This document shows positions 43,705 to 61,903 of a DNA stretch of 64,000 nucleotides, one piece after another. Source of the stretch: a virus. Under the pieces are notes generated by a model. The model ran no database searches, had not been told where the DNA came from, and worked only from the letters and a program-made list of their open reading frames with translations. The position numbers were made by a program, and so were the translations under genes. Within the stretch, counting starts at the first letter, position 1. Every line of letters starts with the position of its first letter. Location of the stretch: IMG/VR virus record IMGVR_UViG_3300044716_000122, positions 31,046 to 95,045 of that record, one strand, 5' to 3'.

Positions 43705-44151
43705 CTATTTTAAACTCTCAAACCCACTCTTAAACGACTTCTCTAAAGCTTTAGAATAAGCTTTTCTGTTATGAGGAATACCTTCTACAGAAACAAACAT
43801 AGCATTAACGTAAACTACTTTACTAGCTTCTCCTTGAAGAAGAATTCCATTTACGTTAATTTCTGTACTTACAATGTATTCTCGTTTAAGAAACTGTAAG
43901 CCTACAATATTTACAAGTTGTTCTGGCATTGCAATGGATTTGATTTTTCCTGAAATAGGACTGCCCTCATTACATAATTGGTACTTGGCTGAAGCAATCT
44001 CTTCTAGAGTAGTTTGTGCTCCAAAGATTATAGGTCTTCCTCCTATCTCTGTTACAGTAGCAATTGAGGTTACAGTGTCAATCTTATAGCATTGAGCACT
44101 CAGAGAAGTCATCATAGTGACTAAAGCGGAAAGTATAAATAGTTTTTTCAT
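43705..44151 (-). CDS. Small secreted protein
   Basis: This gene encodes 148 residues with a clear N-terminal signal peptide (MKKLFILSALVTMMTSLSAQ, cleavage after SLSA). The mature part is beta-rich with two Cys (C22 and CNEG) and ends in a basic helix (KALEKSFKSGFESLK). It is the last gene of the envelope operon and lies 10 bases after the lectin gene. No family was recognised. It would be exported to the periplasm or beyond. Confidence 0.65.
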   Translation of the reverse strand: MKKLFILSALVTMMTSLSAQCYKIDTVTSIATVTEIGGRPIIFGAQTTLEEIASAKYQLCNEGSPISGKIKSIAMPEQLVNIVGLQFLKREYIVSTEINVNGILLQGEASKVVYVNAMFVSVEGIPHNRKAYSKALEKSFKSGFESLK

Positions 44152-44161
44152 AATTTAATAG

Positions 44162-45145
44162 TTAGTAGGTTACTGCTCCAGCATAACCAGGAGCTATTAT
44201 GTAGAGATTTAAAGTTCCTCCACTAGTTAAAGTAGAAGTTGTATGAGTGGAAACTCCAGGATAAGTTGCACGTACATTTGTAGTAGCCGCTTTAATTGCA
44301 TTGTATTGAGAAGTAGTAAAGATTCTTACGTCAGGAGCTGTTCTCCACTTAGAAAACCTTCCTGCTTTTCTTGCAGCCACATAATACTTGTCTGCTACTG
44401 AAAGTAATCCATCTTCATTTACATCATACATGTGAAAAGACAAACCATTTCTTGTAGTTTTTCCTAGTATAGTATTAGATACTCCTTGGATATCTGAGGT
44501 TGCATAAGCCTGGACTCTAGTAGGGGCAGCTATCTCTATGTAGTACTCCTTAGAAGGATCATAAGTCTCAGAAATAGAATAGTAACCCGAAGAGTTAGTA
44601 TAAATAGTTTTATAAAGGGTCCAAGAAGAAGTTGTTACTATGTAATCAAATTCTATAACATAAGCCAGACTACTACTATTGTTTAAATCATTCCACTTAC
44701 CGCTACCTACAAATTGAATGTAGTCTTCATTACCTGAGTTATTGGGTTCTCCTGAGTTCCAGTTTGTGTAAGAAAAAGTTTCTCCTGTTACCCATTTCCA
44801 AGTCCCCTCTGTTACTTCATCTGTTAGTCCTATCCAACCAGAAGGCCAAAGATTAAATAAGAAACTATTTTCACCTGAACTTGTAACTGTTACTAAATAA
44901 CCACCCATAGCAACACAGTTAGCTTTAGCTGTAGTCCAGTTAGCTGTTCCTGTAGAACGATAGTAAGAGTGCCCATTATAATTACTCTGAGAAGTAAATC
45001 CTGTTATAGTAGAATTTGTCCTTCTATATAGCTTTACAGCCACGTTGTTTGCACCAGATCCATTTGCATTATACAAGTATCCAGAATAAGTGAATTGTGC
45101 ACTCAGTGCGTTCACAAAGAAGAATAGAACAATAACCCACCTCAT
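44162..45145 (-). CDS. Secreted C-type lectin with dockerin-like module
   Basis: This gene encodes 327 residues with a signal peptide (residues 1-16, ending LSAQ). A short beta region is followed by a C-type lectin domain (about 59-168) with WIGL (104-107), EPN (133-135) and WND (151-153), the calcium and mannose-type sugar-binding residues; the usual disulfide cysteines are mostly absent (C77 only). After a second beta region comes a dockerin-like calcium loop DVNEDGLLSVAD (241-252) followed by ARKAGRFSKW, shared with the T9SS protein at 50144-52045. The start overlaps the previous stop by 4 bases. Sugar binding at the cell surface is inferred. Confidence 0.75.
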   Translation of the reverse strand: MRWVIVLFFFVNALSAQFTYSGYLYNANGSGANNVAVKLYRRTNSTITGFTSQSNYNGHSYYRSTGTANWTTAKANCVAMGGYLVTVTSSGENSFLFNLWPSGWIGLTDEVTEGTWKWVTGETFSYTNWNSGEPNNSGNEDYIQFVGSGKWNDLNNSSSLAYVIEFDYIVTTSSWTLYKTIYTNSSGYYSISETYDPSKEYYIEIAAPTRVQAYATSDIQGVSNTILGKTTRNGLSFHMYDVNEDGLLSVADKYYVAARKAGRFSKWRTAPDVRIFTTSQYNAIKAATTNVRATYPGVSTHTTSTLTSGGTLNLYIIAPGYAGAVTY

Positions 45146-46605
45146 ATCAATAACTTTGCTCCCATTAAGATTTGAAAGTTGAGAATGTCCTGACCTGCTA
45201 CATAAGTTCCTCCTCCTGTAATACCTAGACCAAATGTCTTAGTCATCTTCCAGGTAAGGTTTACAAAAGGAATTACAATAGGCTTAGCTTTAAATAAAGA
45301 CTCTGTATAATACTTAGAGTAGGGAGAATAGATACCTGCCATAATAATTGTAGCATCTATATGTTTAGTAAGTTTTCCCTTATACATAAATCCCCCTATA
45401 ACAATAGTAGAGATCATTTGTTCTCCGTAGAGTTTACCATAAGTTCCAGCAGCTCCGTAGAGTGCTGTAAAGTTCTTGACTGAATTTACTCTAACAAACA
45501 GAGCTGTGTTAGAGAAGGCTTTAGGCATCAGACTCATTCCATCTGATACTACACTAATGTGTTTATGCCCTTTTTTGTTTGCTCCTATCCATGAACGGAC
45601 ACAGGAGATATTACCGATCTTAGCATTAAGCATATAATCGGCTGAAAACCCAAGAGAAGAAGTACCATCTCCTTTTACTCTTGTAAAGGAAGCAGTACCT
45701 CTTGCATCTTGTGCTCCATCAGACTTAGTCTGAATACCAACTAAATCACCCGTTACTATGATCGCAGGCTTAGCAACTTCGGCTTTAGCTTTATTGGCTG
45801 CTTTCACAGTACCACCAGACTGAGACTTTTGTTGCTCAGTCTTAGTTTCTTCTACTTTTTGTTCTGAGGGTTTCTCGGTTTGTACTTCCGTTTTTTCTTC
45901 GGTTTTACCACTGGAGGAGCCACTACTTCCTGAGCCACTTCCACTTCCACTGCTACCACTGGAGCTTCCGCTACTACTTCCACTACTTCCACTACTGGAG
46001 TTGTCACCACTGCTTCCTGCATTACCGTCTCCGCTGCTTCCACTACTGGATTGGTTACTGCCTGAGGTTTCTGAGGAGTTACCTCCACCGTTTGATTGTC
46101 CGTTTTCTCCTGACGAGCTGCCAGAATTACCAGAACCACTAGAGCTACTGCTAGTACGATTCCGAGAGTTAGTTCGATTGTCATTGCTATTGGTTTTATT
46201 GTTAGTTCCTACGTTAGTTCCTGAAGAAGTACTCCCACCTACATCTACGTTAACACTTCCTACATTTGATATGGCCCCTAGATTCATAACATTACTTACA
46301 ATGTTTAAGGTCGCATTTGTAGTCGTTGTTGTTGTAGTAGTTACTCCAACTCCTTGACAGGGTGATGTATTTTTATACTTCAAATATACACTATTTATCC
46401 AATTATCAAATGTTCCATCTGTTAATTCTGTATAAGAGAAAGTTTGTACCTGTCCATAGTAAGCAATTACTATAGGACTAGACATATTTGCGTTAATAAA
46501 TTTTAACTCTTGTGTACACGGATCTGTGTAAGAATACATAAAGCTCTGGCCTTTGAGGGACAGAGCTATCATGAATAGGATTAATATCTTAGTTTTTAAA
46601 TACAC
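45142..46605 (-). CDS. Outer-membrane-barrel-like protein with Ser/Gly linker
   Basis: This gene encodes 487 residues with a signal peptide (residues 1-19). An N-terminal domain (20-90) contains two Cys and precedes a Thr run (VTTTTTTTT). Residues about 125-235 are Ser/Gly-rich, followed by a Glu/Lys/Gln-rich stretch (EEKTEVQTEKPSEQKVEE). Residues about 290-487 have alternating hydrophobic strands typical of outer-membrane beta-barrels (LGFSADYMLNAKIG, FGLGITGGGTYVAG, QILMGAKLLI at the end). It overlaps the CsgG-like gene start region by 17 bases and probably works with that lipoprotein at the outer membrane. The barrel is inferred from strand pattern. Confidence 0.65.
   Translation of the reverse strand: MYLKTKILILFMIALSLKGQSFMYSYTDPCTQELKFINANMSSPIVIAYYGQVQTFSYTELTDGTFDNWINSVYLKYKNTSPCQGVGVTTTTTTTTNATLNIVSNVMNLGAISNVGSVNVDVGGSTSSGTNVGTNNKTNSNDNRTNSRNRTSSSSSGSGNSGSSSGENGQSNGGGNSSETSGSNQSSSGSSGDGNAGSSGDNSSSGSSGSSSGSSSGSSGSGSGSGSSGSSSGKTEEKTEVQTEKPSEQKVEETKTEQQKSQSGGTVKAANKAKAEVAKPAIIVTGDLVGIQTKSDGAQDARGTASFTRVKGDGTSSLGFSADYMLNAKIGNISCVRSWIGANKKGHKHISVVSDGMSLMPKAFSNTALFVRVNSVKNFTALYGAAGTYGKLYGEQMISTIVIGGFMYKGKLTKHIDATIIMAGIYSPYSKYYTESLFKAKPIVIPFVNLTWKMTKTFGLGITGGGTYVAGQDILNFQILMGAKLLI
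45852..46184 (-). CDS. Overlapping ORF: membrane-anchored Val/Glu/Pro-rich protein with basic tail (candidate)
   Basis: A 110-residue frame, shifted by one base, lies fully inside the Ser/Gly linker of the barrel gene. It starts MTIELTLGIVLAVALVVLVI, a single membrane segment, continues with a Val/Glu/Pro/Ala-rich arm (TPVVEVVEVVAEAPVVAVEV) and ends in a strongly basic tail (PPVVKPKKKRKYKPRNPQ). This TonB-arm-like plan looks protein-like, but frame-shifted Ser/Gly codons (AGT, GGT) automatically read as Val and Ala, so the hydrophobic and repetitive parts may be an artefact. No strong ribosome binding site is visible. Confidence 0.35.
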   Translation of the reverse strand: MTIELTLGIVLAVALVVLVILAARQEKTDNQTVEVTPQKPQAVTNPVVEAAETVMQEAVVTTPVVEVVEVVAEAPVVAVEVEVAQEVVAPPVVKPKKKRKYKPRNPQNKK

Positions 46606-47278
46606 CTGCCTTAATGAGATTTTGAATCACATTAGTACAAGCAGTTTCTAAAGACTTTCTGGTAGCTTTACCGACAGTACTTTGAGAAAACTTCATATCG
46701 TCTAGAGACTTTAAGAAAGATTCGCCTACCTTTTGTGATTCGCCTTCTCCAGATCCAATGTATATCTGACCTGTCTTTGCGTCAACAAAACGCACTTGTA
46801 AGCGAATAAAGGTAGTAACAGCAACCTTCGACTTAAGACCATCAACTTGCTCATCTTCATCAACAGCAAAATCGGCCACAGTAACATAAACAAAGTAGTG
46901 AGCAGGTTTAATCTTACCTTTTCCATCAATGGGTTCATCAAATACACCTTTCTTTGAAGCTTTAAACTGAGTTACCATCCTCTCCTTGATCTCACTCTTC
47001 TCCTCAGTAAATATAAAACGATTCGTTTCATCTAAATAATCTAATACGGATTCAGCAAAACCTAAGCCTACGTTCTTCTCCTGTAATGCAGGATACAAAC
47101 TTAAGACTTTTGTCATGTCTACACTAACTACTTGAACTGTTTTTTTAATAGAATCTGTGTAACCAGAAACACTTGAGATGTCCTTAGATACTACAGGCTC
47201 ATCATCTGTGGTTGTTTTCATACTACCACAAGCAAACAATACAACAGTCAACAATAGACTACCAAGGATCTTCTTCAT
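46589..47278 (-). CDS. CsgG-like outer-membrane lipoprotein
   Basis: The product has 229 residues from the ATG at 47278 (MKKILGSLLLTVVLFACGS); an upstream ATG at 47362 would add a Leu-run from overlapping sequence and is rejected. It has a lipobox LFAC with Cys17. The mature part has the alternating helix/strand layout of CsgG-family lipoproteins: VLDYLDETNRFIFTEE, AHYFVYVTVADFAV, VRFVDAKTGQIYIGSGEGE and a C-terminal helix (ETACTNVIQNLIKAG). CsgG forms secretion pores for curli; other members are lipoproteins of unknown role. It overlaps the previous gene by 20 bases and precedes the barrel gene. Confidence 0.65.
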   Translation of the reverse strand: MKKILGSLLLTVVLFACGSMKTTTDDEPVVSKDISSVSGYTDSIKKTVQVVSVDMTKVLSLYPALQEKNVGLGFAESVLDYLDETNRFIFTEEKSEIKERMVTQFKASKKGVFDEPIDGKGKIKPAHYFVYVTVADFAVDEDEQVDGLKSKVAVTTFIRLQVRFVDAKTGQIYIGSGEGESQKVGESFLKSLDDMKFSQSTVGKATRKSLETACTNVIQNLIKAGVFKN

Positions 47279-47576
47279 CTGGTTGAGGTTTAGTAGCAGG
47301 AGCAGGAGTAGCAGCAGGCTTTGAAACCTCTTTCTCTCTGATGATGGTAGTAGTACCTCCACCTGATTGCTTTTGCTGGTTAGTGTTGTTGTTCTCTAAG
47401 TTAACGTTAATAACAGGCTGAGCAGATTGTTCTGTCTTAGCATCTTCTTTAGGTTCTTCGCCTCCTCCTAGATGAGTAGCAAACCAAGCACCACCTGCTG
47501 TAACAGCAGTAGTAATTGCTCCAATGATAGTTTTTTTGATAGCGGACATACCGCTTTCTTCTTTTTCTTCTGACAT
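47259..47576 (-). CDS. Small membrane protein with Pro-rich tail
   Basis: This gene encodes 105 residues: a charged N-terminus (MSEEKEESGMSAIKKT), one membrane segment (IIGAITTAVTAGGAWFATHLGG), then Asn/Gln-rich and Pro/Ala-rich stretches (NLENNNTNQQKQ, AATPAPATKPQPDEED). It overlaps the CsgG-like gene and lies 4 bases from the coiled-coil membrane gene. It could be an outer spanin-like or adaptor protein, but lacks a lipobox. Confidence 0.6.
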   Translation of the reverse strand: MSEEKEESGMSAIKKTIIGAITTAVTAGGAWFATHLGGGEEPKEDAKTEQSAQPVINVNLENNNTNQQKQSGGGTTTIIREKEVSKPAATPAPATKPQPDEEDPW

Positions 47577-47842: not shown

Positions 47843-48313
47843 TTAGTTTGTTTGTCCTAATGCTTGTATATAAGAGTCAATGATTCTAGACACGGCTTCA
47901 GGCTTTTCATCGGCTTTAAATTTAACTTTAATCTTAGCCATCCCTGAAGAACTTGGATTGATTCCTGAGTCTACTTCAATTCCTTTTATATTGTGTTCGT
48001 ACCCCTTCTTCTTAAATAGTCCCAGTAGAGACTTCTTAAGACTGGATACTTCCTTCTCCTCATCCCCAAAAATTAATCTAGCTTCAAACTCTATATCTAA
48101 CTCATCTAGTCCAATAGAAGAGTGATCTGCTAGAATATAAAGAGGCACTAGTAACTCCTTGTCCCCAATCATAAAGTTTGTAACCTTTGGAGTACCATCC
48201 TCATTAAAGTAATTTCGTAGAGCATTAATGTGTTGTCTTTCACTAATACTCTGAGAAACCATGGCGGCCTCTAATAGACCGCCTACAAGTTCCTCAATGT
48301 TTAATCTTGCCAT
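47843..48313 (-). CDS. DUF2589-related protein, short paralogue
   Basis: This gene encodes 156 residues. The N-terminus (IEELVGGLLEAAMVSQSISERQHINAL) resembles the LPIEDLI...A....A opening of DUF2589, followed by a beta-rich part (LLVPLYILADHSSIGLDELDIEFEARL) matching the PLLAIVPIPNL...I.F..E pattern, and a C-terminal half with KIKVKFKADEKPEAVSRIIDSYIQ. It lies directly downstream of the clear DUF2589 gene, so the pair probably acts together. The function of the family is unknown. Confidence 0.65.
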   Translation of the reverse strand: MARLNIEELVGGLLEAAMVSQSISERQHINALRNYFNEDGTPKVTNFMIGDKELLVPLYILADHSSIGLDELDIEFEARLIFGDEEKEVSSLKKSLLGLFKKKGYEHNIKGIEVDSGINPSSSGMAKIKVKFKADEKPEAVSRIIDSYIQALGQTN

Positions 48314-48339
48314 ACAGCAAAGTTAGTTAAATTTTCTGA

Positions 48340-48930
48340 TTAAGATTCTTTACTCAACGGAACCAAAGAAGGCTCTAACATTGCAGTAAGGAAGTCAGAT
48401 AATTTAAGCATGCCTTCTGTTGGAGGCAACTGTTCTGCATGTACTTTTACTTCGTACTTAGCTGAGTTATCAGTCTGCCTAGTGTTCTCTTTGTGAGCAC
48501 TTACGCTACCAGATACCTTAGCATTGAAACTCATACCCCACCATTTGCCACCTGCAGTTACTTCATAAGCTGTCTCAGAATCGTTAGATTCTTTAGACAT
48601 GTCTGAAGTTTTTACTTCCATAGTGAAATTGATGTCAGCAGAAGTAATTGCCAAAGAAGGCAACGGAACCAAAGGAAGCATAGGAACTTTACTGTAAACA
48701 GTCTTAAGTTCTTGAACTCCTGTGTCTCCGTCTGTGAATACACGTTGCATCTCTACATCAAGTGAGCGTGCAACATTAGCATCACCTTTTTTCTCAAAAG
48801 CTACCTCAGAGATGTATCTCCAAGTTACTTCATTTAATTTAGCTTGTCCTTTTGCCATTCCGACAATAGGGCTTACAATAAGGTCTTCGATAGGAAGTCC
48901 TCTGAACTGATCTGCAATTGAATCTGCCAT
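48340..48930 (-). CDS. DUF2589 family protein
   Basis: This gene encodes 196 residues. It follows the DUF2589 pattern closely: LPIEDLIVSPIVGMAKGQAKL (residues 11-31), VPMLPLVPLPSLAITSADINFTMEVK (given as key strands, about 83-108), and a C-terminal AHKENTRQTDNSAKYEV segment (about 152-168). It begins after a short gap from the zinc-ribbon gene and is followed by a shorter paralogue. The biochemical role of DUF2589 is not known to me. It has no signal peptide or membrane span. Confidence 0.82.
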   Translation of the reverse strand: MADSIADQFRGLPIEDLIVSPIVGMAKGQAKLNEVTWRYISEVAFEKKGDANVARSLDVEMQRVFTDGDTGVQELKTVYSKVPMLPLVPLPSLAITSADINFTMEVKTSDMSKESNDSETAYEVTAGGKWWGMSFNAKVSGSVSAHKENTRQTDNSAKYEVKVHAEQLPPTEGMLKLSDFLTAMLEPSLVPLSKES

Positions 48931-49163: not shown

Positions 49164-49766
49164 TTAAGGATTACTTGTATTAGATAAAGACTTTTTACAA
49201 TTTGTATTATGCCATCTTGAGATTGCAGCAGGTTGTGCCATAAAGCCACAAACCTCACATGATACTTTTGATTTTGGGTATTTATAATTTGCAGTATTTT
49301 CTCTAGGCTTACGCATCTTCTCTATAGCTTCAGGAGTATGTTTAATTCCTCGTATTGTATTTGCAAGTTTATCTTTTGATTCTTGCGTCCATACTCTACC
49401 TGGTTTTCCTTTTTTATCTAAACTGATTTGGAATTGTCTTATCTTCTCTCGTGTTTCTTGTTTTACAATTACACCAGTACCACCATCACCTCCATCTGTT
49501 TGATTTGCTAGAAAACCTTCAGACTTATCTTTTCTCCCGTATAATTTAATGAGTTCCTTTTCCTTTTCACAAGCCTCTTCCCAACTTAAGTCATTCATAA
49601 TAATATCTACTCTATAGTTTGTTTTGGCTATAATATTATGCCAATACTCATTACGATGCTCTTTTGCTTTAGACCTCTTAAATTTTCCTTCATTATCATC
49701 TACGCCTACTCCAATATAAAATGGAATATTCGTATCTAATCTAATATGTCTATACACGTAAGCCAT
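49164..49766 (-). CDS. GIY-YIG homing endonuclease with NUMOD3-like and zinc motifs
   Basis: This gene encodes 200 residues. The nuclease domain starts with YVYRHI (3-8) and FYIGVG (16-21), the GIY-YIG pair, with catalytic-type Arg/Glu in the following helices (KAKEHRNEYW, WEEACEKEKELIKLYGR). Residues about 140-155 hold a NUMOD3-like SxKHTPEAIEKM element (IKHTPEAIEKMRKPR). The C-terminus has a CxxC...HxxxC zinc-type motif (CEVCGF, RWHNTNC). It is a free-standing mobile gene inserted in the operon between the holin-like and zinc-ribbon genes; no intron is visible. Confidence 0.85.
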   Translation of the reverse strand: MAYVYRHIRLDTNIPFYIGVGVDDNEGKFKRSKAKEHRNEYWHNIIAKTNYRVDIIMNDLSWEEACEKEKELIKLYGRKDKSEGFLANQTDGGDGGTGVIVKQETREKIRQFQISLDKKGKPGRVWTQESKDKLANTIRGIKHTPEAIEKMRKPRENTANYKYPKSKVSCEVCGFMAQPAAISRWHNTNCKKSLSNTSNP

Positions 49767-49778
49767 AAGTAAATATAC

Positions 49779-50147
49779 TTAATTTTCTTCTCTTTTACTA
49801 TATTTAGCAGCTATGATTTCTGGGGTATCGTCTTCCTCATCTACTTTAGAGATTAACATTTTATCTCTATCTTCAGAATTGAACCAGTAGTCAACTACTT
49901 TGTTTAAGTTACCTACAAAGGCACCCAACAAAATAAGTAACATTTCTTTCCAATCTTCTCCAATAGATGCTCCTAAAAATACTGCTGCATTAATACCAAC
50001 AATAATTAAAGTAAACAAACCTAATACAATTGCTGTAATTCTCCAACGATTAGCTTGCATTTGTTGTAGCATATAGTAGAACCTGTTCTTAGGATCTACT
50101 GCTACTGGCTCTGCTTGGGTAAAACCAAGTGTTTTTTTAATGTTCAT
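49779..50147 (-). CDS. Holin-like membrane protein
   Basis: This gene encodes 122 residues with a soluble N-terminus and two membrane segments (ITAIVLGLFTLIIVGINAAVFLG and LLILLGAFVGNLNKVVDYWF), then a charged cytoplasmic tail (DRDKMLISKVDEEDDTPE). The second segment ending in VVDYWFNS is typical of holins I know from Bacteroidota phages. It overlaps the T9SS-protein gene by 4 bases, and a second holin-like gene lies 3 kb upstream. Confidence 0.6.
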   Translation of the reverse strand: MNIKKTLGFTQAEPVAVDPKNRFYYMLQQMQANRWRITAIVLGLFTLIIVGINAAVFLGASIGEDWKEMLLILLGAFVGNLNKVVDYWFNSEDRDKMLISKVDEEDDTPEIIAAKYSKREEN

Positions 50148-52045
50148 TTTTGTACAATTATTTTTGAATGTAATACTTCTGTCTCAGTTGTTACAGAAAG
50201 GATATAGAGGCCATTAGAAAGACGATCTAGGTTTGCACTATACTTGTACTTACCTGCGGGCATACGTTGTTTTAAAATAGTCTGTATGCGTCTTCCTACC
50301 TCATCAGAGATAGCCATGTCTACGTTAGAGTCTTCTTTAATCTTGAATTGAATCTGAATATCTCCTTCTGTAGGATTAGGAAATACTATAATAGAGTTTA
50401 AATCATTAAGCGAAACAGTTCCTTTGTTAACTCTACGTACTTCAATAATACCCATAGCAGGAGTGATGTTCATATCCTTAGAGTTTTTGTCTCCTACGTA
50501 TTTAGCACCTGTCCATAAAGCTGCACTTGCCCAACTATCTTGAGGCTTCTTAGCAATGAACTGAACATTGAAAGCCTGTTCTCCGTCATTAAGCATGTTC
50601 TCGTTAGTTAAGTCAGCACCTCCCCAAGATACTATACCATTAGAAGGGTTCATATAAGTAGTCCACTTCATCATCTTCTCAGAGTTCTCAATACCTTTAA
50701 ACTCTAAGTAAGCTGTGTCGTACTTAAGATCTAACTGTAATGCACCTAAGTTCTTTCCGTTAGTTAAAACTTTAACAGGAATGTTAACTAGGTTTCCTTC
50801 TTCTACACTTACTTTGGGCATGTTTACCTCAATAGTTTCTGCAGGGAAATCATAACTTACAGTTTCGTCAATAATGTAACGCTTTGCATTAGCAGAGTTA
50901 ACAATCTTAATAGGAGTTAAACGAGCCATCTTAAATCCTGTAGAGTTTGCATCTCCTTTAACAGCTACATAGTAAGTAATAGAATCTCTTCCATCTACAG
51001 AGTAAGTAAAGTTATTTACAGTAGAGTAAGTAGCAGTTAAGTTAGAAGCAGATCCGTTGATTGAATTATATTCAGCAACTGTGAAGAACATTACATCTTT
51101 CTTTGAGTTAGGCCAAGCAGAGAATCTACCTGCCAAACGTCCGTATACAGAGTATACATCAGCAATAGAAATATCACCAGTAGTACCGTTTACATCCATT
51201 GTGTAGTAATCAAATCCTGCGGGAGTGTATTGACCTAAGATAGCTTGGTTAACCTTCTGTGCATCTGCAGTAGAGAATACGTTACCTGGAGTCATTGTAT
51301 CACCTTTAACTGCAATACGTACATCCCAATAAGTAGTATCTAAGAACTTACGGAATACAGTAACCCCGTTAGAGTTAGTTTTCTGTGCAGCAACTTCAGT
51401 CCAGGTAGAAGAACCTTTAGCTCTTTTCTCTAAGCTAACTGTTAAGTTCTTAGCATCTGTACCTGTAACGTTCTTAAACTTAGTAGCAAATCTTAATACC
51501 TTTTGGTTGAAACGTCCACCATAAGAGTAAACTACCAAAGTAGTGTCGTTACCCCAGTTAGTAGCAGCTCTATTAGAGAATGACTTAACACCTGCAACTT
51601 TTAAAGTCTTGATAGAATCTAAACTGTTCCATACAGACTCAGCAGCGTGAGTGAAAGTCAAATCAAATGTAGCTCCGTTAGAATAGTTGTAAGTAGAACT
51701 AGTACCTGTGTAAGCCAAGGTAACTGTTAAGAATCCTTGTGTGTTACTATCTACGTACTGAAGATATTGATCTGTAGTAGAAATCTTAAGAGAAGGAACG
51801 ACTGCAGTAAAAGCTGTTTTGTCGTAGAACACACGGAATTGCATACCTGTGATCTTCTCTGAAGTAGAAGTGTTATAGAAATGTAGAGGAGCAACTGTCT
51901 GACCTACAGTGTTAGTAGCTACTTGATAGCCTGAGTCAATGACTACCCAGTGACCTGTACCTGGAGAGGTAGCAGAACTTTGTGCTGATACATTGCCAAC
52001 CAACAATGTAAGCACCCCGATGAAGACTTTAATTAATTTGTTCAT
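50144..52045 (-). CDS. Exported cohesin/dockerin-like protein with T9SS C-terminal sorting domain
   Basis: This gene encodes 633 residues with a signal peptide (residues 1-21). The order is a cohesin-like beta domain (about 35-172), a beta domain (175-250), a dockerin-like calcium loop region (DVNGTTGDISIAD, 284-296) followed by YGRLAGRFSAW, a second cohesin-like domain (about 405-535), and a C-terminal domain (551-633) with VFPNPTEGDIQIQF, DEVGRRIQ and DRLSNGLYILSVTT...KIIVQK, the signature of type A T9SS sorting domains. The protein would pass the inner membrane by Sec and be displayed or released by the host T9SS. The start overlaps the upstream stop as ATGA. Such a domain is very unusual on a phage. 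Confidence 0.78.
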   Translation of the reverse strand: MNKLIKVFIGVLTLLVGNVSAQSSATSPGTGHWVVIDSGYQVATNTVGQTVAPLHFYNTSTSEKITGMQFRVFYDKTAFTAVVPSLKISTTDQYLQYVDSNTQGFLTVTLAYTGTSSTYNYSNGATFDLTFTHAAESVWNSLDSIKTLKVAGVKSFSNRAATNWGNDTTLVVYSYGGRFNQKVLRFATKFKNVTGTDAKNLTVSLEKRAKGSSTWTEVAAQKTNSNGVTVFRKFLDTTYWDVRIAVKGDTMTPGNVFSTADAQKVNQAILGQYTPAGFDYYTMDVNGTTGDISIADVYSVYGRLAGRFSAWPNSKKDVMFFTVAEYNSINGSASNLTATYSTVNNFTYSVDGRDSITYYVAVKGDANSTGFKMARLTPIKIVNSANAKRYIIDETVSYDFPAETIEVNMPKVSVEEGNLVNIPVKVLTNGKNLGALQLDLKYDTAYLEFKGIENSEKMMKWTTYMNPSNGIVSWGGADLTNENMLNDGEQAFNVQFIAKKPQDSWASAALWTGAKYVGDKNSKDMNITPAMGIIEVRRVNKGTVSLNDLNSIIVFPNPTEGDIQIQFKIKEDSNVDMAISDEVGRRIQTILKQRMPAGKYKYSANLDRLSNGLYILSVTTETEVLHSKIIVQK

Positions 52046-52512
52046 TTTGTTTTTATTTTACTTAGTTTGTGTATTTGTTCTACAGCGTTTGCCTGTAACC
52101 AAGGCTCTGGGGTTGGTAGTTTATTTATAAAACTTAGTTCGTATATGTAACACTTAAGTTCTTCTTCATCTAGACTCTGTACTACTGGATGTAGCAAGTA
52201 GCTTAGGTGAAGACTTTCATGTACAAGAACGCAAGCTAAGTTAGCAATTGAGTTCATCTTTGCATCTCCTACGGCTATGTAAATAGTGTTTCCGTCTTGA
52301 GATATGTTGTTAGAAGAATAGGGACTAATCCAAAAGTCTACTATGTCGCAGACATCTATCAATCTAGTGTATATGTTGACATCTGTTTGAGCAATTAATG
52401 CTAAGGCTGAGTCTACCTTTAAATCCCAACCATCCCCTGCCTTCATCACTTTAATCTGAGAAGAACAGGGGATAGAGAGAATCAGAAAAAGACTTACTAG
52501 AAGTCCTTTCAT
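52042..52512 (-). CDS. Exported HExxH metalloprotease-like protein
   Basis: This gene encodes 156 residues. A signal peptide (MKGLLVSLFLILSIPCSS) is present; the Cys16 context (LSIPC) is an imperfect lipobox. HESLH (98-102) is a zincin motif within an LVHESLHLSYLLHP helix, preceded by IYIAVGDAKMNSIANL. It lies between the endolysin candidate and the T9SS protein with tight overlaps. It may cut envelope proteins during lysis or process the secreted proteins; neither is shown. Confidence 0.65.
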   Translation of the reverse strand: MKGLLVSLFLILSIPCSSQIKVMKAGDGWDLKVDSALALIAQTDVNIYTRLIDVCDIVDFWISPYSSNNISQDGNTIYIAVGDAKMNSIANLACVLVHESLHLSYLLHPVVQSLDEEELKCYIYELSFINKLPTPEPWLQANAVEQIHKLSKIKTK

Positions 52513-53100
52513 TTATTTAATATCTTTAGACTCGATAAGAGTGTACGTAAAAGAATTACCACCCAATGTTGCAGCCTTCTTACAGATAGCCAAGAATGCA
52601 TCAAAGTCGGCAGACTTCTTAAACACTTGGCAACCTTCTGACCAGTTCTCAACGTAGGTAGAGTCTGCACCAGCTTTATGAATGTTAATACCGAAGATCC
52701 CTTCTTGTATCTTGGACTCATCATAGTTCATGTCTTTGTTAGCATCACGGTAAACTTTAACGTTAGCCTTTTGCTTAAGGGCTTCGTATTTACCTTGGTG
52801 TAATGCAATGTGGTGTGAACCTGAGTATTGACCAGGTACTAAACGTGCAACACCTGCAGCGTTATGGAATTCTTTAACTCCCTTAGTTCCTGGATCTGTA
52901 GTAGCAGGCCAGATTTTAAATTTCCACTCTCCACCTTCTTTGTAAGAAAGAGTCAAGTGATCGTCAAATACGTTAGTTACTTTAGTACCAGTAGCAGAGT
53001 TTCTAACACCAATGATATTGATATTAAAGTCTCCGTTTTCAAAGTACTTGTAACCTTTAGCTTTCATAGCCGCTTCGATTTGTTCTCTTGTGTAGCTCAT
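52513..53100 (-). CDS. Endolysin candidate, YkuD-like (L,D-transpeptidase-type) fold
   Basis: This gene encodes 195 residues without signal peptide. The C-terminal half has INIHKAG (His141) and WSEGCQVF (Ser154, Cys157), matching the HxxG...SxGC catalytic pattern of YkuD-type L,D-transpeptidases/peptidases. The N-terminal half is beta-rich (VFDDHLTLSYKEGGEWKFKIWPATTDPG, key strands only). It lies directly after the holin-like gene, which supports a role in peptidoglycan cleavage. Whether it transfers or hydrolyses cannot be told. Confidence 0.7.
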   Translation of the reverse strand: MSYTREQIEAAMKAKGYKYFENGDFNINIIGVRNSATGTKVTNVFDDHLTLSYKEGGEWKFKIWPATTDPGTKGVKEFHNAAGVARLVPGQYSGSHHIALHQGKYEALKQKANVKVYRDANKDMNYDESKIQEGIFGINIHKAGADSTYVENWSEGCQVFKKSADFDAFLAICKKAATLGGNSFTYTLIESKDIK

Positions 53101-53416: not shown

Positions 53417-53581
53417 ATGTCTTCTATAACCCACTTAGAAAGTAGAGCAGTGAGAAAAACAGTTAAACTCACCAGCACAGTGGTATCTGAAAGGATGTTC
53501 AAAGCAACTTCGGACTTTCATAAACGGTACTTAGGTGAGAAAAGGTTGGTTATGGGCAAAGATAAACCTTTAAAAAAATAA
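53417..53581 (+). CDS. 54-residue basic plus-strand ORF (uncertain)
   Basis: An ATG at 53417 opens MSSITHLESRAVRKTVKLTS and ends KDKPLKK; the composition is basic and protein-like. It is followed by a hairpin at 53608-53631 that could terminate either strand. Against it, no Shine-Dalgarno is seen, and a good minus-strand promoter (53557-53586) lies across its 3' end, making it antisense to a leader of the lysis operon. Either a small convergent gene or chance. Confidence 0.35.
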   Translation: MSSITHLESRAVRKTVKLTSTVVSERMFKATSDFHKRYLGEKRLVMGKDKPLKK

Positions 53582-53586
53582 GTCAA
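53557..53586 (-). promoter_or_regulatory. Bacteroidota-type promoter before the lysis/envelope operon
   Basis: On the minus strand TTG (53584-53586) precedes TATCTTTG (53557-53564) by 19 bases, directly after a strong terminator. The leader to the first start (53383) is about 165 bases. Confidence 0.65.
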
Positions 53587-53602: not shown

Positions 53603-53631
53603 CAAAAAACCCCCAGATTTCTCTGAGGGTT
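53603..53631 (-). terminator. Strong rho-independent terminator with GAAA loop
   Basis: A 10-base-pair stem AACCCTCAGA/TCTGGGGGTT (one G-U pair) with GAAA loop is followed by TTTTG on the minus strand. It lies 29 bases past the stop at 53660. On the plus strand TTTCTTT follows, so it may act both ways. Confidence 0.85.
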
Positions 53632-53659
53632 TCTTTAAACTAATAGTTTAATAAATTAC

Positions 53660-54592: not shown

Positions 54593-57500
54593 TTACTTGT
54601 TTTTTAATAGTTCTATCTCAGCCCTTAAAGCCTCGATCATTGTTTGTTGTTCTTTCATTGCTTCTACCAATAGAGGGATAACTTTAGTGTAAGCCAAGTT
54701 CTTGTATCCATCTTCTTGAGTAGTAACCGCTTCTGGAAGTACTGCCTCAACATCTTGAGCAATAAGACCTACATCATGTGTGCCTACGTGCTCACCTGAG
54801 TTCCAATCAAACTCTACACCACGTAGAGATTTAATCTTTTCTACAGGAGTAGTAATAGGAGTGAGGTTATCCTTAAGTCTAGAATCTGAAGGCTGAACAA
54901 CTGTGTAGTCAAAAATTACTTGGTTTAAGCCTCTTGGAACGTAGAACATTCTTGAGTCTGTACTGTTCTCTGCAATACGTCTGAATTCAATGTCTTGACC
55001 TCCTGCATCTCCAGTAAGAAGTATCTTAAATGTTTTCCAACTAGAATCTGCTTGACCTCTCAATAAGAAGTAAGTCAAAGGATCTTGGTTATACCCTACG
55101 TTAGAGTGAACTTGTAAACCTGTTCCATTACTTCCAGCAACAGTACAAGTATTACCTACTTGGTTTACTACAGTTTTCCAAGCACTCCAGCTACCATTAT
55201 ATCCAGATCTATAAGCCAAAGCTCTGTATGCACCTCCAGTATTAGCAACATCTTCAGGGAAGTACATTTGCATCAAAGGACCTCCAGTTTCACCATAAGA
55301 TAAAACAGTACCATAACCATAAGAATCACTAGGTCTATTAGCTCCAGTGTGACCTAATGCATTAGATACAATTAACTTAGCAGTAATAAAATAGCTATTC
55401 CAATCTTGACCATAGATATCTCCAAACTTAGTAAGCTGTTGTGATATTGTAGCGTAACTTACAGATTGGCTAGCGATGTTTCCTGTATTAATTGCTCCAG
55501 ATACAGTTTGATAAGTACCACTAGATTCATAGGCCATAGACCCTAATCCTAATTGAGACTTAACGTGAGCAACACTAGACTTCCTTAACCATCCATCTCC
55601 ATTACTTGTATAGAATGAGTTGATAGTTGGGTTCTCTGTTTCAGATACGTTTGAGTTAATGTAATGAGCATAGATGTAGTTGTTAGCATCTCTAATAACC
55701 ACTGTGTTTGCACCTACACTACCAGAAGGAGCATATCCACCTACAGTGGCAGCGCTACCCGTAGTATTCTGATTCCAAGTAGGAACTGTTCCAGTTAATC
55801 CTGAATAAGCCACGTTGGTGGCTGTTGCTGCATTACCTGATACCGAAATACTCCATGTACCACTTGCCCCAGTACCCGTTAGTGTAGGAGAATAACTTGT
55901 GTAATTAACTGAAGTTAAAATATCACAAAAAGCTCCCCAAGTACTATCAATACCTTTTCTTAATCTTAAGCCAGGATTTCCAGAACCATTAACACCTGTT
56001 TGATTAACAAATGCTAACTGATAAGAAGAATCTCCTGTAGAGGAAGTTGTGCCATCCCAAGGATTAAATTGTAATAAACCTGCATAGTTACCTACAGCAC
56101 CTACACTTCCTGCTCCTACAAATGAAAATCTAAATGATCTAGCTGATGTTGTAGGATAGTGATTTGCACTACCTGGATTTCTGTCGTCATCATTATAAGA
56201 GTACCAACCTCCTGTATTAGCTAAGCCAGCAAAAGTAGGAGAGTTACCTGTACCTACACTCTGGTTAATGGTGTATGCTGTAATGTTACTAGCTGTTCCT
56301 GAGATACTAGCACTTGATGTAATATAACCACTTGGGTTTGTAGCATTGTACGGAGTAAAGCCTAATGCTGTGGTTACGTTACCTGAGTTAATTCCTGTAA
56401 TATAACCAGAGTTATTCGTAAACTGAGAAATGTTCATGCTAGTTAAAACACCTGCTTCATCAGCATATCCAGCAGCTGCTTTTGTCCAACTTCCCCAACT
56501 ACCACCTTCTTGTGTTCTATAATAAGTATACTTACGAGCATGATCTCTTGCTACAGCAGTCATTAATCCATAAGTACCATATGCATAATCATTGCCTAGA
56601 CCTTGTGTCTGTACATAGTATTGAGAACCTGATTGTGGAGTATCGTTAGCAGTAGAGCCTTGCATAAACCAAACACCAAAGTTTGGAATTGCTCCAAATG
56701 TTTGATACGTGCTATGTCCTTGTCCACTGTTATTCCAAAGTTGTATTTTGCTCAAGCCATTAAGCTGAGCTGAATTAGTTACTGATTGGCTTCCAATGTT
56801 AGCAGTTGTAATTGCATCTGTAATTCCATAACCACTAATTGTAGTTGGCTTAGATGAAACGTTTGCAAATGAAATACCTGTAATATACCCACTAGGATTT
56901 GTACTATTGTATGGGGTAAATCCAAGAGAAGCCTGCTTACTATCAAGAGCTGTTTGTAATCCTGTTACATCTGATATAGCGTGAGTATGTGCAGTAATAG
57001 AAGTTAAAAATCCTCCATAGTTACCTAGATCGTTTGTAAATTGAGACAAGGCAGTAGGACGAGAACTTACGTTAGTCCATGCTACTGATCCAGCAGATCC
57101 AGTAACACTAATGCTCCAAGTTCCTGAAGCACCTGTTCCTGCAAGAGACGGAGAGTAAGCTGTATAGTTTGCATCGTTAAGTAGTACTCTCCAAGGGTTA
57201 AATGAACCAGCATCGCCATTTCTTGTTCTAAAGGCAATACCTGTTCCACTACCACTATAGGCAGCGTTAAGTTGTAATGAGTATCCTGGTTCACTAAATC
57301 TAGCAATAGGTCCTGTATATGGAGCATTTACTGAATATGTAAATCCTGTAGAGTTAGCGTCCATTGTATTAGCATCAAGAGTAAATCCTTGATAATACAT
57401 TACATAAGACGGTTTACTTGATACATTACCCCATGCTACTGCATTTGCTGTACCTGCTGTTGTTGCGTAAGACACGGATTGACTTCCAATATTAGAAGTA

Positions 57501-60500
57501 GTAATTAATCCTAAATTAGAAATAAAAGTAGCAGGTGTTTGAAATCTTACATAGTCATCATCCGAACAATATATCTTGGTTATAGCAGAAGAGAATACTC
57601 CAGAAGGAGTATTAATCCATCCTGCTTGAATATATCCATTTGCATCAGTTCTAACAATTTTATTTGCTTCGTTATTTCTACTACTATGAACAGCTAATCC
57701 TCCTGCTGTGGATGCATTACTTACTGACTGAGACCCAATGTTACCTGTATTAATTGCAGATGCAATTGGTTGAGCCCAAGAAGAATAGTTAGATGAGTCT
57801 AGTACAGTTGCTTGAGCTCCAGCGCCATATGCATTTTTGTGACAATATAATGTACCACTTTCCCAATAGAACTGCCATCCATAGGCGTTGTTGTGAAATC
57901 CAGTTGTGTTAGAGGTTGGATTTACCATCAATGATACGTTTCCATTTGATGCATTAAACTCAATTCCGTTCCATCCATTTCTAGTGCCAGTAACTAGCCA
58001 GGGACCATAACTTCCATCATTAGGTCTTAAATGAGCACCATTTGTTGGAGAGTATAATCCATAAATACCATTAAGTTGAATCCAACTTTCAGGAATTAAA
58101 TAACCACTTCCATTTCTAGTAGGAATAGTATTAGCACTAGCTCCTACAGATACACTATATCCTCCTACAGTAGAGGAGTTACCTCCATTAGCTGGAGCAG
58201 AACCTGCTGTAGTGGCATAAGTAGCAGTAGCAGCATTACCGCTAATATTTGTCTGGTCACCTGTATTTGTACCACTTAAATTTGATGCAGACAATGTTCC
58301 TGCAAAATATCCATTACCTGTGCTAAGACCAATATATGCTCGTAATCCATTTGCTCCACCTCCAATAAAACCAATTGAATTACCTTCCATACCACCAACA
58401 GCAGAATCAATTTGCCTATGGTAAATACCCCAGTTTGAACCAGTGTCTGCACTATCTAGATAAATCCAAGAGTCTCTATCGTTTGGTTGACTGTATAAAA
58501 ATACGTTTGAAGAAGGGTTAACTGTTGTAAAACTATTAAGAATTAAACTGTTATTACCTCTATATCTTTCTGCAGTAATAGAAGAACTTGTAGTAGATCC
58601 TCTTCCAGTAACAGTAGCCAATGTATCTGTTTCTGTATATCCTGTAATATAACCAGAGTTATTTGTGAATTGAGAGATGTTCATTGAAGTTAACGCACCC
58701 GATGTAGTAGCATAACTTACAGATTGTGAACCTATATTACTTGTAGTAATTGCAGTTGAAGCAGCTTGATAGCCAGCACTTGCATGATTTCCCCACCCAT
58801 AAGCTGTATTCCATTGTGTGGAATCTCCATAACCAGAAGAGTAAATTACAGCTGCTATAAAGTTTTCATACGATCCCCCTGGGTTATTTCTAATAGCCAT
58901 TCTACCACTAGATTCCATCATGATACTAGAAGCAACAACACCCCCCCAATGGAATGCTAACTGAGGTGCATATATTTCGTTTGTATTTCCACTTCCTCCA
59001 CTATTCTCTCTTACTTGATAATTCGTTGTATAAGATGTTCCTGTTGAAGTACTTTGGATAGTACCAAGCCCAGAAAGATTTGTAGCATTACCAGCACTTC
59101 CTGAACTGCCAGTTACATTAATACTCCAAGTACCACTGTTATAAACATAATCGGTATTATTTGAGTGTTTTAATCTTCCACCATATATGTAAACAGTTCC
59201 ACCACCATTGCCAAAGTACATATCCCCACTTGAGTAATGATTAAAATACATTTGATAAACATTACCTGCTCCACCTCTAGTGTCTATATGTAGATTACCG
59301 TTAGAAGTTCTTATACGAGCATATGTTGTATCTGTTGACCAACCACCAAGATGTAAAGCCGCAGCAGCATTATATGAGCTAGCTCCATAAACTATTAATG
59401 CAGCAGCATCCCCATTTACAATTGTATTTGTAACATTTGTATAAACTCCATTAGTCACACTACCCGCACTACCACTAATACTTCCTGATGATGTAATATA
59501 TCCACTAGGATTACTAGAGTTATAAGGAGTATATCCTAAAGCACCTGTTACTTGTCCTGATGTTATTCCTGTTAAGTATCCTGCACTAGCGTGGTTACCC
59601 CAACCAAATGCGGTATTCCAGTTAGAGGATGTTCCATAAGAAGTTGTAGTAATAAGTCCTGAAGTCCAGATACCTGAACCAATAGCTGTTTGGGTAACAC
59701 CATTATCCATGAATAAAGCCTGATGCCCTAAGCCAGATTTAGATTGTCCTCCTACATTTGTATGTGTCCATGCAATACCATAAAGATTTCCAGTAGTTGT
59801 ACCATTAGCAGCCAACTTATAAGAGTCCCCCATTGCAAATACACCTTGGTATCTCTCAGCAGAATAAAGACCTACAAGACCATTACCATAGTTTCCATCT
59901 GTGTAAACATTACTATAAGAACGTAGTGTGTCAGCATTAACAGTAACTAATCTAGAAGTACTATTAGGATCTAAATAATAATTTGTATCCTGTGAATCAT
60001 AAAAAATTGGCGCTCTCATTTGAGAGGCTGCATCTACACGATATAAATTACTAGTACTATTAGGATCTAAATAGTAACTAGTATTATTTGAATCATAAAA
60101 AATAGTACCATAAAAAGCACCACTCTTTTCTATTTTAGTATTTCCAATTGTTTTGTCATAAATAGGATAATCAGTATCTACTCCAACAAATAAATTTGCA
60201 AGAAAAATTGTATCACCACTAGCATTGTAATCGGTTAAGAATCCTAATTTAGCAGAAGCTGTACCTGGAGGAAACTTACCTCCAGCATTTGTACCACTAT
60301 AATCTACACCGTCCATTATACCTACATAGTTTGTCCATGTAGTTGGTACAATAGTGTATCCCAAAGCAATGTACTTATATGTACCACCTGCACTACCATT
60401 ACTTAACTTAGTACCAGAAGCAATAGAAGGACCATTCCAAGGACTAATCAGAGTAATAGTATTAGTGGCGTAGTTAACAGCTCCAGGATCCCATCTTCCT

Positions 60501-61903
60501 CCGTACCAGTTTTGAGAATAAGTTTCTGGGGGATAAGCATATCCAAATGAGTTAACATAGTTCCAGAATATAAATGATCTGATGTGGGTAGATACTCCTG
60601 CTGTTCCCCCATTTTCCCAGTTAGCAGCACTAGTTAAGTAAACAACTGTATCCCCAGGGTTAAGAGTTTGTGCCAACGTAGTAAGAGTGTTAGCATAATA
60701 CATATGAGTAACTGCAGTAATTGTATTACCATCTACATCAAAAAAGTTTAAATAAGCATAATATGCACCTTGTCCATTTGTAGTTCTTGCCCAAAAATCT
60801 AAACGATATCTTTTCTCTGGATTGACAGGCATTAACTCATCAGTATTTGGAGCTTGGTATTGTCCAGTATATCTAAATGATCCACTTGAGAAATACGCTT
60901 GACTACCATCAAATGTAAATGAAGTAAAGTTTGTGTTGTTACCCATCAAACCTGTTCCATTACTAAGTAAGTTTTCTCCTCTAGACCAGATATACTTCTT
61001 CATAGTATCTAGACTATAGCCTCCTAAAGCACCTGCACCCGTAGCATAATTTACACTTAATGAACTGGCTGTTCCTGTTAACCCTGCTCCTGATCCAATA
61101 AATTGAGATGCTGTATGTGTTCCTACAGAAGAGAAGTTTCCATTACCAAACATTGAATGTTTTATACTCCAATTAGATGAATCAACTCCATCTGAAGCAT
61201 AATAATGTTGTATGGTTCCACTTGCATCCATGTGTCTCAACCACATACTGTCAGAAACAGTATTTCTAAATTGCATTGAAGGATACTGTCCTCTAATGTT
61301 TATAGCTCCTTGGTTAATCCCAGCATTAGCCCAGTTATTATTTAGTCGAATATGACTAAGTACTGAAAGTCCATTAGGATCAAGGTAATATCCAGTATCA
61401 TTAGAATCGTAAAAAATAGGTGCTCTTAGAGATTCGTTATTTTGAAGATAACCACCATTGTCCATTAGAACATTAGCACCACTAAATCTCATCTGCCAAG
61501 TGTTATTACCACCAATATACAACTCATCACCAGCCCCAGCTTTTATCATAGAAGCATTTGTTCCAGCTGATGTAAGTGTTATAATAGAAGACGCATTTAC
61601 GTTAAATGTTGCGGTAGTTAATACACTATTACCATTGGGGTCAAGGTAATAACTAGTATCTGCGGAATCGTAAAAAATTGGAGCACGCATATCAGAGGTA
61701 CTCTGAATGCCAACATTAGAGTTTATACGAGCACCATCCCAGTTTAGATAATTGTTTCCGCCTCCAAAATATATTGCATTACCAATATTAATATTAGTAG
61801 GACCAATGGTTGCAGGTATACTTGTTAAAGCATAACTCCCAATGTTACTTGTTGTGATTACGGCATTTCCGCCTACTGTGGTATTTATTAATAAATTAGC
61901 CAT
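54593..61903 (-). CDS. Long tail fibre with C-terminal S74 chaperone domain
   Basis: This gene encodes 2436 residues, Gly/Ser/Asn/Tyr-rich and repetitive. Four copies of a PIFYDSxDTxYYLDPN unit lie in the first quarter, then many xNIGSQSVSYA units, three GFTPYNxxNPSGYIT units and WGNHASAGY units, all common in trimeric phage fibres. The end (about 2340-2436) is an S74 intramolecular chaperone: SDSRLKDN, then HDVGLIAQDVEAVLPEAV and a coiled-coil tail. In this family the Ser/Lys pair cleaves the chaperone after trimerisation. It probably binds the cell surface. The start overlaps the upstream stop by 8 bases. Confidence 0.85.
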   Translation of the reverse strand: MANLLINTTVGGNAVITTSNIGSYALTSIPATIGPTNINIGNAIYFGGGNNYLNWDGARINSNVGIQSTSDMRAPIFYDSADTSYYLDPNGNSVLTTATFNVNASSIITLTSAGTNASMIKAGAGDELYIGGNNTWQMRFSGANVLMDNGGYLQNNESLRAPIFYDSNDTGYYLDPNGLSVLSHIRLNNNWANAGINQGAINIRGQYPSMQFRNTVSDSMWLRHMDASGTIQHYYASDGVDSSNWSIKHSMFGNGNFSSVGTHTASQFIGSGAGLTGTASSLSVNYATGAGALGGYSLDTMKKYIWSRGENLLSNGTGLMGNNTNFTSFTFDGSQAYFSSGSFRYTGQYQAPNTDELMPVNPEKRYRLDFWARTTNGQGAYYAYLNFFDVDGNTITAVTHMYYANTLTTLAQTLNPGDTVVYLTSAANWENGGTAGVSTHIRSFIFWNYVNSFGYAYPPETYSQNWYGGRWDPGAVNYATNTITLISPWNGPSIASGTKLSNGSAGGTYKYIALGYTIVPTTWTNYVGIMDGVDYSGTNAGGKFPPGTASAKLGFLTDYNASGDTIFLANLFVGVDTDYPIYDKTIGNTKIEKSGAFYGTIFYDSNNTSYYLDPNSTSNLYRVDAASQMRAPIFYDSQDTNYYLDPNSTSRLVTVNADTLRSYSNVYTDGNYGNGLVGLYSAERYQGVFAMGDSYKLAANGTTTGNLYGIAWTHTNVGGQSKSGLGHQALFMDNGVTQTAIGSGIWTSGLITTTSYGTSSNWNTAFGWGNHASAGYLTGITSGQVTGALGYTPYNSSNPSGYITSSGSISGSAGSVTNGVYTNVTNTIVNGDAAALIVYGASSYNAAAALHLGGWSTDTTYARIRTSNGNLHIDTRGGAGNVYQMYFNHYSSGDMYFGNGGGTVYIYGGRLKHSNNTDYVYNSGTWSINVTGSSGSAGNATNLSGLGTIQSTSTGTSYTTNYQVRENSGGSGNTNEIYAPQLAFHWGGVVASSIMMESSGRMAIRNNPGGSYENFIAAVIYSSGYGDSTQWNTAYGWGNHASAGYQAASTAITTSNIGSQSVSYATTSGALTSMNISQFTNNSGYITGYTETDTLATVTGRGSTTSSSITAERYRGNNSLILNSFTTVNPSSNVFLYSQPNDRDSWIYLDSADTGSNWGIYHRQIDSAVGGMEGNSIGFIGGGANGLRAYIGLSTGNGYFAGTLSASNLSGTNTGDQTNISGNAATATYATTAGSAPANGGNSSTVGGYSVSVGASANTIPTRNGSGYLIPESWIQLNGIYGLYSPTNGAHLRPNDGSYGPWLVTGTRNGWNGIEFNASNGNVSLMVNPTSNTTGFHNNAYGWQFYWESGTLYCHKNAYGAGAQATVLDSSNYSSWAQPIASAINTGNIGSQSVSNASTAGGLAVHSSRNNEANKIVRTDANGYIQAGWINTPSGVFSSAITKIYCSDDDYVRFQTPATFISNLGLITTSNIGSQSVSYATTAGTANAVAWGNVSSKPSYVMYYQGFTLDANTMDANSTGFTYSVNAPYTGPIARFSEPGYSLQLNAAYSGSGTGIAFRTRNGDAGSFNPWRVLLNDANYTAYSPSLAGTGASGTWSISVTGSAGSVAWTNVSSRPTALSQFTNDLGNYGGFLTSITAHTHAISDVTGLQTALDSKQASLGFTPYNSTNPSGYITGISFANVSSKPTTISGYGITDAITTANIGSQSVTNSAQLNGLSKIQLWNNSGQGHSTYQTFGAIPNFGVWFMQGSTANDTPQSGSQYYVQTQGLGNDYAYGTYGLMTAVARDHARKYTYYRTQEGGSWGSWTKAAAGYADEAGVLTSMNISQFTNNSGYITGINSGNVTTALGFTPYNATNPSGYITSSASISGTASNITAYTINQSVGTGNSPTFAGLANTGGWYSYNDDDRNPGSANHYPTTSARSFRFSFVGAGSVGAVGNYAGLLQFNPWDGTTSSTGDSSYQLAFVNQTGVNGSGNPGLRLRKGIDSTWGAFCDILTSVNYTSYSPTLTGTGASGTWSISVSGNAATATNVAYSGLTGTVPTWNQNTTGSAATVGGYAPSGSVGANTVVIRDANNYIYAHYINSNVSETENPTINSFYTSNGDGWLRKSSVAHVKSQLGLGSMAYESSGTYQTVSGAINTGNIASQSVSYATISQQLTKFGDIYGQDWNSYFITAKLIVSNALGHTGANRPSDSYGYGTVLSYGETGGPLMQMYFPEDVANTGGAYRALAYRSGYNGSWSAWKTVVNQVGNTCTVAGSNGTGLQVHSNVGYNQDPLTYFLLRGQADSSWKTFKILLTGDAGGQDIEFRRIAENSTDSRMFYVPRGLNQVIFDYTVVQPSDSRLKDNLTPITTPVEKIKSLRGVEFDWNSGEHVGTHDVGLIAQDVEAVLPEAVTTQEDGYKNLAYTKVIPLLVEAMKEQQTMIEALRAEIELLKNK

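Follow-up and report, generated by a model that had tools for sequence, protein, structure and literature searches.

A candidate surface-display cassette of Bacteroidota phages, built around a cohesin scaffold with a type IX secretion sorting domain

Why would a bacteriophage encode a protein that carries cohesin-like domains and ends in a sorting domain of its host's own type IX secretion system (T9SS)? The question is raised by one gene, at 50144–52045 of the window, by which we mean the whole 64,000-nucleotide stretch of viral DNA that was analyzed. On balance, we regard the product as probably the scaffold, at the cell surface, of a phage display cassette that is mobile and would use the host T9SS and a cellulosome-like mode of docking.

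The viral record from which the window derives is that of a crAss-like phage (Crassvirales) of 95 kb, as judged by PHROG matches to the portal (2e-104), TerL (2e-98) and head protein (1e-25). An earlier note on this DNA had narrowed the host to T9SS-bearing Bacteroidota, and three lines of evidence point in the same direction. The relatives of TerL are mostly crAss-like phages of Bacteroides, Cellulophaga and Flavobacterium, with the gut crAss-like cr1_1 and cr55_1 among them, the closest relative, at 40%, being deposited as a Leptolyngbya phage. Flavobacterium sp. LMO8 is the host of the isolated Flavobacterium phage immuto, in which the cassette is also present. Finally, Bacteroidota-type promoter motifs are present: the looser -33/-7 form was found 11 times on the minus (coding) strand and once on the plus strand, where 5.2 were expected on both, and a scan for the strict TTTG-TANNTTTG form returned 4 against 2.3 expected, which is not above chance.

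Domain anatomy of the scaffold

The open reading frame is real and encodes 633 amino acids on the minus strand, a detail that was missing from the earlier note; its domains lie on the same strand. In order, these are a signal peptide, cohesin-like domain 1, a transthyretin-like plus dockerin-like module, cohesin domain 2 and a type A T9SS sorting domain. The signal peptide, which had been proposed before (residues 1–21; 51983–52045), is read from the N-terminus MNKLIKVFIGVLTLLVGNVSA↓Q, which conforms to the Sec type with an AxA-type site, and its form is kept in those homologues with an intact start. The two cohesin-like domains named in that note were both recovered by the Pfam Cohesin model, as two stretches with a whole-protein E of 1.2e-14 (55.1 bits against a cut-off of 24.1 for PF00963). 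The best stretch, at residues 405–528 (50462–50833), is cohesin domain 2, and the second marks domain 1, at about residues 31–180 (51506–51955, limits approximate); in one homologue, L170, it is residues 44–144 that match the Cohesin model best. When a structure model of moderate confidence, built from 24 homologues (mean pLDDT 61), was compared to the PDB with Foldseek, cohesins came out on top (TM to target ~0.7), domain 2 included, and many of these were from cohesin-dockerin complexes.

The module at residues 212–347 (51005–51412) calls for more careful wording. The dockerin-like calcium loop reported earlier is present as the motif DVNGTTGDISIADVY, but Pfam does not call Dockerin_1 in the scaffold. 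In related phage proteins this model reached E values of 0.0007–0.0067 only, all under the curated Pfam cut-off, the best score being that of L267 (E 0.0007, 20.2 bits versus 22.9). Of the two calcium loops only the second is canonical, a clear first loop is missing, and a dockerin profile run against the PDB gave no convincing match (best E 0.013). As the Dockerin_1 scores stay under the cut-off, 'dockerin-like' is the fitting term. In immuto-type phages the scaffold is encoded as two open reading frames, one with cohesin 1 and the dockerin-like part, the other with cohesin 2 and the sorting domain. A separate signal peptide is present on each, which argues that the halves act outside the cytoplasm and interact or belong together. 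By analogy, this split form looks like an anchor (cohesin 2 and sorting domain), an adaptor (cohesin 1 and dockerin-like part) and a cargo.

At the C-terminus, a profile search with TIGR04183 located the type A sorting domain, first noticed in the sequence itself, at residues 554–632 (50150–50386), that is, at the extreme end of the 633 residues, with an E of 4.1e-10 and 39.5 bits against the NCBIfam cut-off of 23. PF18962 (Por_Secre_tail) agrees, with residues 554–631, E 4.1e-11 and 43.4 bits against 27. In the moderate-confidence model, seven strands are predicted at 553–631; in strand count, this matches the seven-strand tail that had been anticipated, and seven is the usual number for type A sorting domains. 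The scaffold is the sole TIGR04183 match in all six frames of the 95,045-bp viral record. Among the homologues, the domain was above the cut-off in 28/28 records, and in 20/20 of another set, with exactly one sorting-domain protein above the cut-off in each phage record that was checked. Type A domains in general have been shown experimentally to be collected by PorV, leading to static anchoring or release, and RemA, a lectin adhesin of F. johnsoniae, is one such type A cargo (PMC12618676). The sorting domain and signal peptide of the scaffold thus back the suggestion that it may be exported by the host T9SS, with display on or release from the infected cell.

The six-gene cassette and its swapped adhesins

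A search for scaffold homologues gave 96 viral stretches, 80 of which were retained (58–100% identity), and wherever they were uncut by contig ends, the signal peptide and sorting domain were kept in nearly all. The sequence evidence supports the first interpretation of the gene, but the scaffold belongs to a conserved and mobile cassette of six genes that had gone unnoticed. This cassette is complete in 69/69 viral loci with enough flank. In 55 of the 69 the order is scaffold, the gene at 47259, lipoprotein, barrel-like protein, adhesin and 148-aa protein; the adhesin stands first in 13 immuto-type loci, and the last two genes are exchanged in one. Searching in reverse, from the lipoprotein, the cassette was present in 52/52 cases, and in 59/59 when distant lipoprotein relatives on contigs of up to 434 kb were used. 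Many of the cassette loci are metagenomic contigs, and they are not independent, several being near-duplicates, so that these counts should be considered as describing a rule and not a probability.

The five partners of the scaffold, each found in 69/69 cassettes, are likewise encoded on the minus strand. They comprise a small conserved protein of 105 aa with one hydrophobic segment (47259–47576); a conserved envelope lipoprotein with the lipobox LFA↓CGSM (46589–47278); a signal-peptide protein with a Ser/Gly linker and a C-terminus that, judged by eye from the sequence, may fold into a beta-barrel (45142–46605); an exported adhesin of 327 aa (44162–45145); and a small exported protein of 148 aa (15 kDa) with a signal peptide (43705–44151). 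Frequent accessories on the same strand are a small membrane protein (49779–50147) and an exported HExxH protein, a putative zinc hydrolase with the motif VLVHESLH (52042–52512), each in 50/69 loci, as well as an endolysin-like protein directly upstream (52513–53100; PHROG endolysin, 3e-13) in 36/69. The HExxH protein, which lies between the endolysin-like and scaffold genes, belongs to no Pfam family.

Two insertions were also seen. A homing-endonuclease-like gene (49164–49766; phrog_314, 1.5e-21) lies within the cassette of the window and of some relatives only. Two adjacent DUF2589 proteins (47843–48930), also inside the cassette of the window, recur in some phages only (L003, L020, L021, L063, L031 and L074), at 97–100% identity, though the adjoining genes are far less alike.

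The adhesin gene, about 5 kb from the scaffold, encodes a candidate partner that had been overlooked. It has a signal peptide, a C-type lectin domain (68–163; Lectin_C, 2.7e-16) and a transthyretin/dockerin-like C-terminus, and its C-terminal half is homologous to scaffold residues 212–347 (BLASTP E 3e-15). As the adhesin has no T9SS domain of its own, we infer that it docks onto the scaffold. The earlier note had offered capture of enzymes or adhesins through cohesin-dockerin pairs as examples of function. For adhesins, the sequence evidence is favorable, with cohesin and dockerin-like parts as the putative pair; for enzymes it is not, as no catalytic family was recognized in the ~20 partner proteins scanned.

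In relatives the adhesin is modular, with a constant N-terminal strip, a constant dockerin-like C-terminus and a middle part that varies. This middle is Lectin_C in the window and in immuto, and elsewhere GEVED (E 1e-11 to 1e-13), PA14 (E ~1e-5), a laminin-G/ConA-like lectin (Laminin_G_3; E down to 3e-27), Ig_7 or an unclassified module. For example, L007 and L011 share scaffolds that are 92% and lipoproteins that are 94% identical, while their adhesins barely align. L074, compared with the window through the near-identical record L002, has an adhesin of 97%, a tail fibre of 100% and a scaffold of 83% identity. Judging from such alignments, exchange of the adhesin module is rapid.

Relatives of the lipoprotein are encoded in 340 viral stretches, up to those of jumbo phages, and this conserved protein can thus serve as a marker for finding further cassettes. 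Its weak CsgG-like resemblance was pursued as well. With PF03783 (CsgG), 0/17 records were above the cut-off and 5 were sub-threshold, at E values of 3e-4 to 5e-3 per record. Comparison by hhalign to the CsgG of E. coli, HTVC008M and Melnitz was weak (P 0.0036 and 0.1), the E. coli query having a 99% match to annotated csgG genes. A search of solved structures with the lipoprotein profile gave no match, and its AlphaFold model was unusable (pLDDT 36). With every formal test having failed, we rejected CsgG as the identity of the lipoprotein; the faint likeness remains a lead.

Transfer between phages and selection

The cassette is carried by crAss phages of podovirus-like type, by contractile-tailed phages and by jumbo phages. 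In G008, G009 and G020 the scaffold is 82–84% identical to that of the window and the terminase only 29%. The contractile-tailed G010, G011 and G026 have scaffolds of 73–79% identity without any terminase or head-protein match, and a 252-kb phage carries a scaffold of 45–46% in the same cassette. By these comparisons, the cassette is horizontally transferred between unrelated phages. Since closely similar cassettes sit in phages with unlike terminases, a portable trait, and not a part of the virion, is the simplest reading.

Among ~85,000 bacterial and archaeal genomes, a pattern search, which would miss distant homologues, gave one match only. This is a 16.5-kb contig (L219; RFPL01000028.1) of a 'Sphingomonadaceae' MAG that holds most of the cassette, with the adhesin near the contig end, and its DNA probably comes from a phage and was assigned to the wrong bacterium in binning. 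A bacterial origin of the cassette was rejected, as by this pattern search it is near-absent from bacterial genomes and the sole contig carries the cassette itself. In plasmids, no cassette was found.

Median dN/dS was 0.07 for cohesin 1, 0.12 for the middle part, 0.11 for cohesin 2, 0.23 for the sorting domain and 0.49 for the signal peptide. The sorting domain is thus under purifying selection though more divergent than the cohesins. Type A sorting domains typically diverge faster.

A proposed display route, its alternatives and known systems

The anatomy of the cassette, the co-occurrence of its genes, their horizontal transfer, the swapping of modules and purifying selection are observed directly. 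How the parts would work together is proposed as follows. Sec would carry the scaffold, together with its partners, into the periplasm, as their signal peptides suggest. The host T9SS would then recognize the C-terminal sorting domain, and the scaffold would cross the outer membrane, to be anchored or released. The dockerin-like C-terminus of the adhesin would bind a scaffold cohesin, as the domain pairing and strict co-occurrence suggest, so that the infected cell would bear an exchangeable module that binds sugars, in this phage a C-type lectin. More speculatively, the lipoprotein, the barrel-like protein and the two small proteins might help the adhesin across or onto the outer membrane, perhaps by way of a CsgG-like pore. 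As the most likely benefit, also speculative, infected cells, or lysis debris and progeny, may stick to new hosts, kin or particles. We give about even chances to this being an undescribed mobile apparatus, in which a T9SS-exported cohesin scaffold with docked, exchangeable dockerin-like adhesins alters the stickiness of infected cells before lysis, in Bacteroidota phages of podovirus-like, contractile-tailed and jumbo type.

The same display apparatus could serve another end: by binding glycans on the surface of the host itself, the module would mask receptors and bring about superinfection exclusion. An exported adhesin, made early or late, would indeed coat the infected cell, the modules vary as host glycans would, and superinfection exclusion was suggested for phage T9SS cargo by the authors describing Cryophage (PMC7468147). 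On the other side, with scaffold divergence removed, adhesin type showed no significant tracking of tail-fibre identity (partial r 0.12, permutation p 0.065; a weak test), and tracking as a sign of a shared receptor was rejected. We consider masking possible, though less likely than not to be the function. A decoy role, in which the scaffold would occupy the host T9SS (PorV/SprA) to saturation and thereby strip the cell of adhesins, gliding proteins or phage receptors that the T9SS delivers, would fit the single sorting-domain protein per phage record and the purifying selection on that domain. Such a role is very improbable, as it leaves the conserved cohesins, fixed partners, separate adhesin and module swapping unexplained, and as F. 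johnsoniae apparently has an excess of PorV, the type A shuttle, or recycles it (PMC12618676). Equally doubtful is a scaffold that is an Ig-like decoration or tail-associated virion protein whose sorting domain is merely a similar beta sandwich: Ig-like domains are frequent on virions and in the window the gene has tail-fibre genes on one side and head genes on the other, but the scaffold and its partners have signal peptides, independently so in both immuto-type halves, the same cassette spans podovirus-like, contractile-tailed and jumbo phages, and the curated sorting-domain model is above its cut-off throughout.

The proposed surface display can be set beside several known systems. Phage-encoded T9SS cargo was described in Cryophage as three separate, variable proteins (endoglucanase, GH39 and PA14) and was called a unique occurrence (PMC7468147). 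In both cases, genes of Bacteroidota phages encode type A sorting domains, PA14 is represented, the cargo varies and a hijack of the host T9SS is proposed. Here, however, one conserved cohesin scaffold is accompanied by a separate, swappable adhesin and four envelope or small partners, and the set is common to unrelated lineages. Sorting domains have also been noted near crAss-BACON ORFs (PMC6949934). Clostridial cellulosomes, with their anchoring and adaptor scaffoldins and dockerin-bearing cargo, share the cohesin fold, dockerin-like modules on the cargo and a surface-anchored scaffold, which is predicted here. Unlike them, the cassette is phage-encoded, the host is Gram-negative, anchoring would be by the T9SS and not by SLH domains or sortase, the cargo consists of binding modules, with no enzymes among the scanned adhesins, and the dockerin is degenerate. 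Pelagimyophages and phage Melnitz carry curli (T8SS) genes (PMC7029224, PMC9004378), which likewise form a cassette for outer-membrane surface structures, with a proposed role in sibling capture or lysis and perhaps a CsgG-like protein in common. Those sets have clear CsgG and CsgF, whereas here the CsgG scores stay sub-threshold and neither CsgF nor curlin was identified; a T9SS, cohesin or adhesin is not reported for them (PMC7029224, PMC9004378).

Direct homologues of the scaffold are already in databases, as A0A6J5M064 of an uncultured Caudovirales phage (45%; automatic UniProt name 'Secretion system C-terminal sorting domain') and as gp14/gp15 of immuto (~28%), in records that describe no function, cassette or mechanism. 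Subscription papers and preprints aside, the literature yielded nothing on cohesin or dockerin in natural phages and no account of this cassette. Phage T9SS cargo has so far been noted only in passing; as cargo for a host secretion system it is already known, and there is a fair chance that the cassette is a new kind. Its conserved order across unrelated phages, together with the swappable module, points to strong selection for remodelling the surface of infected Bacteroidota, a group with a major part in breaking down polysaccharides in waters and guts. With the display reading, virology would gain a case of cohesin/dockerin-like assembly, and a defined isolated phage, immuto on Flavobacterium sp. 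LMO8, is at hand for separating receptor masking, clumping and attachment.

As for expression, a Bacteroidota-type promoter motif (TTG-N19-TATCTTTG; 53557–53586, minus strand) lies upstream of the lysis/scaffold block, preceded by a terminator-like hairpin (53604–53635). In the block that follows it, the holin-like, endolysin-like, HExxH and scaffold genes overlap at their ends, which makes late expression of the scaffold alongside the lysis genes plausible. Elsewhere in the window, two long tail-fibre genes (54593–63974) end in Peptidase_S74 chaperone domains. The first tail fibre of L074 is 100% identical to that of the window and its terminase 81%, indicating mosaic exchange. A minus-strand open frame at 1–12165, of at least 4055 aa, runs off the window start and presumably encodes one of the giant proteins of crAss-like phages, of virion or polymerase type.
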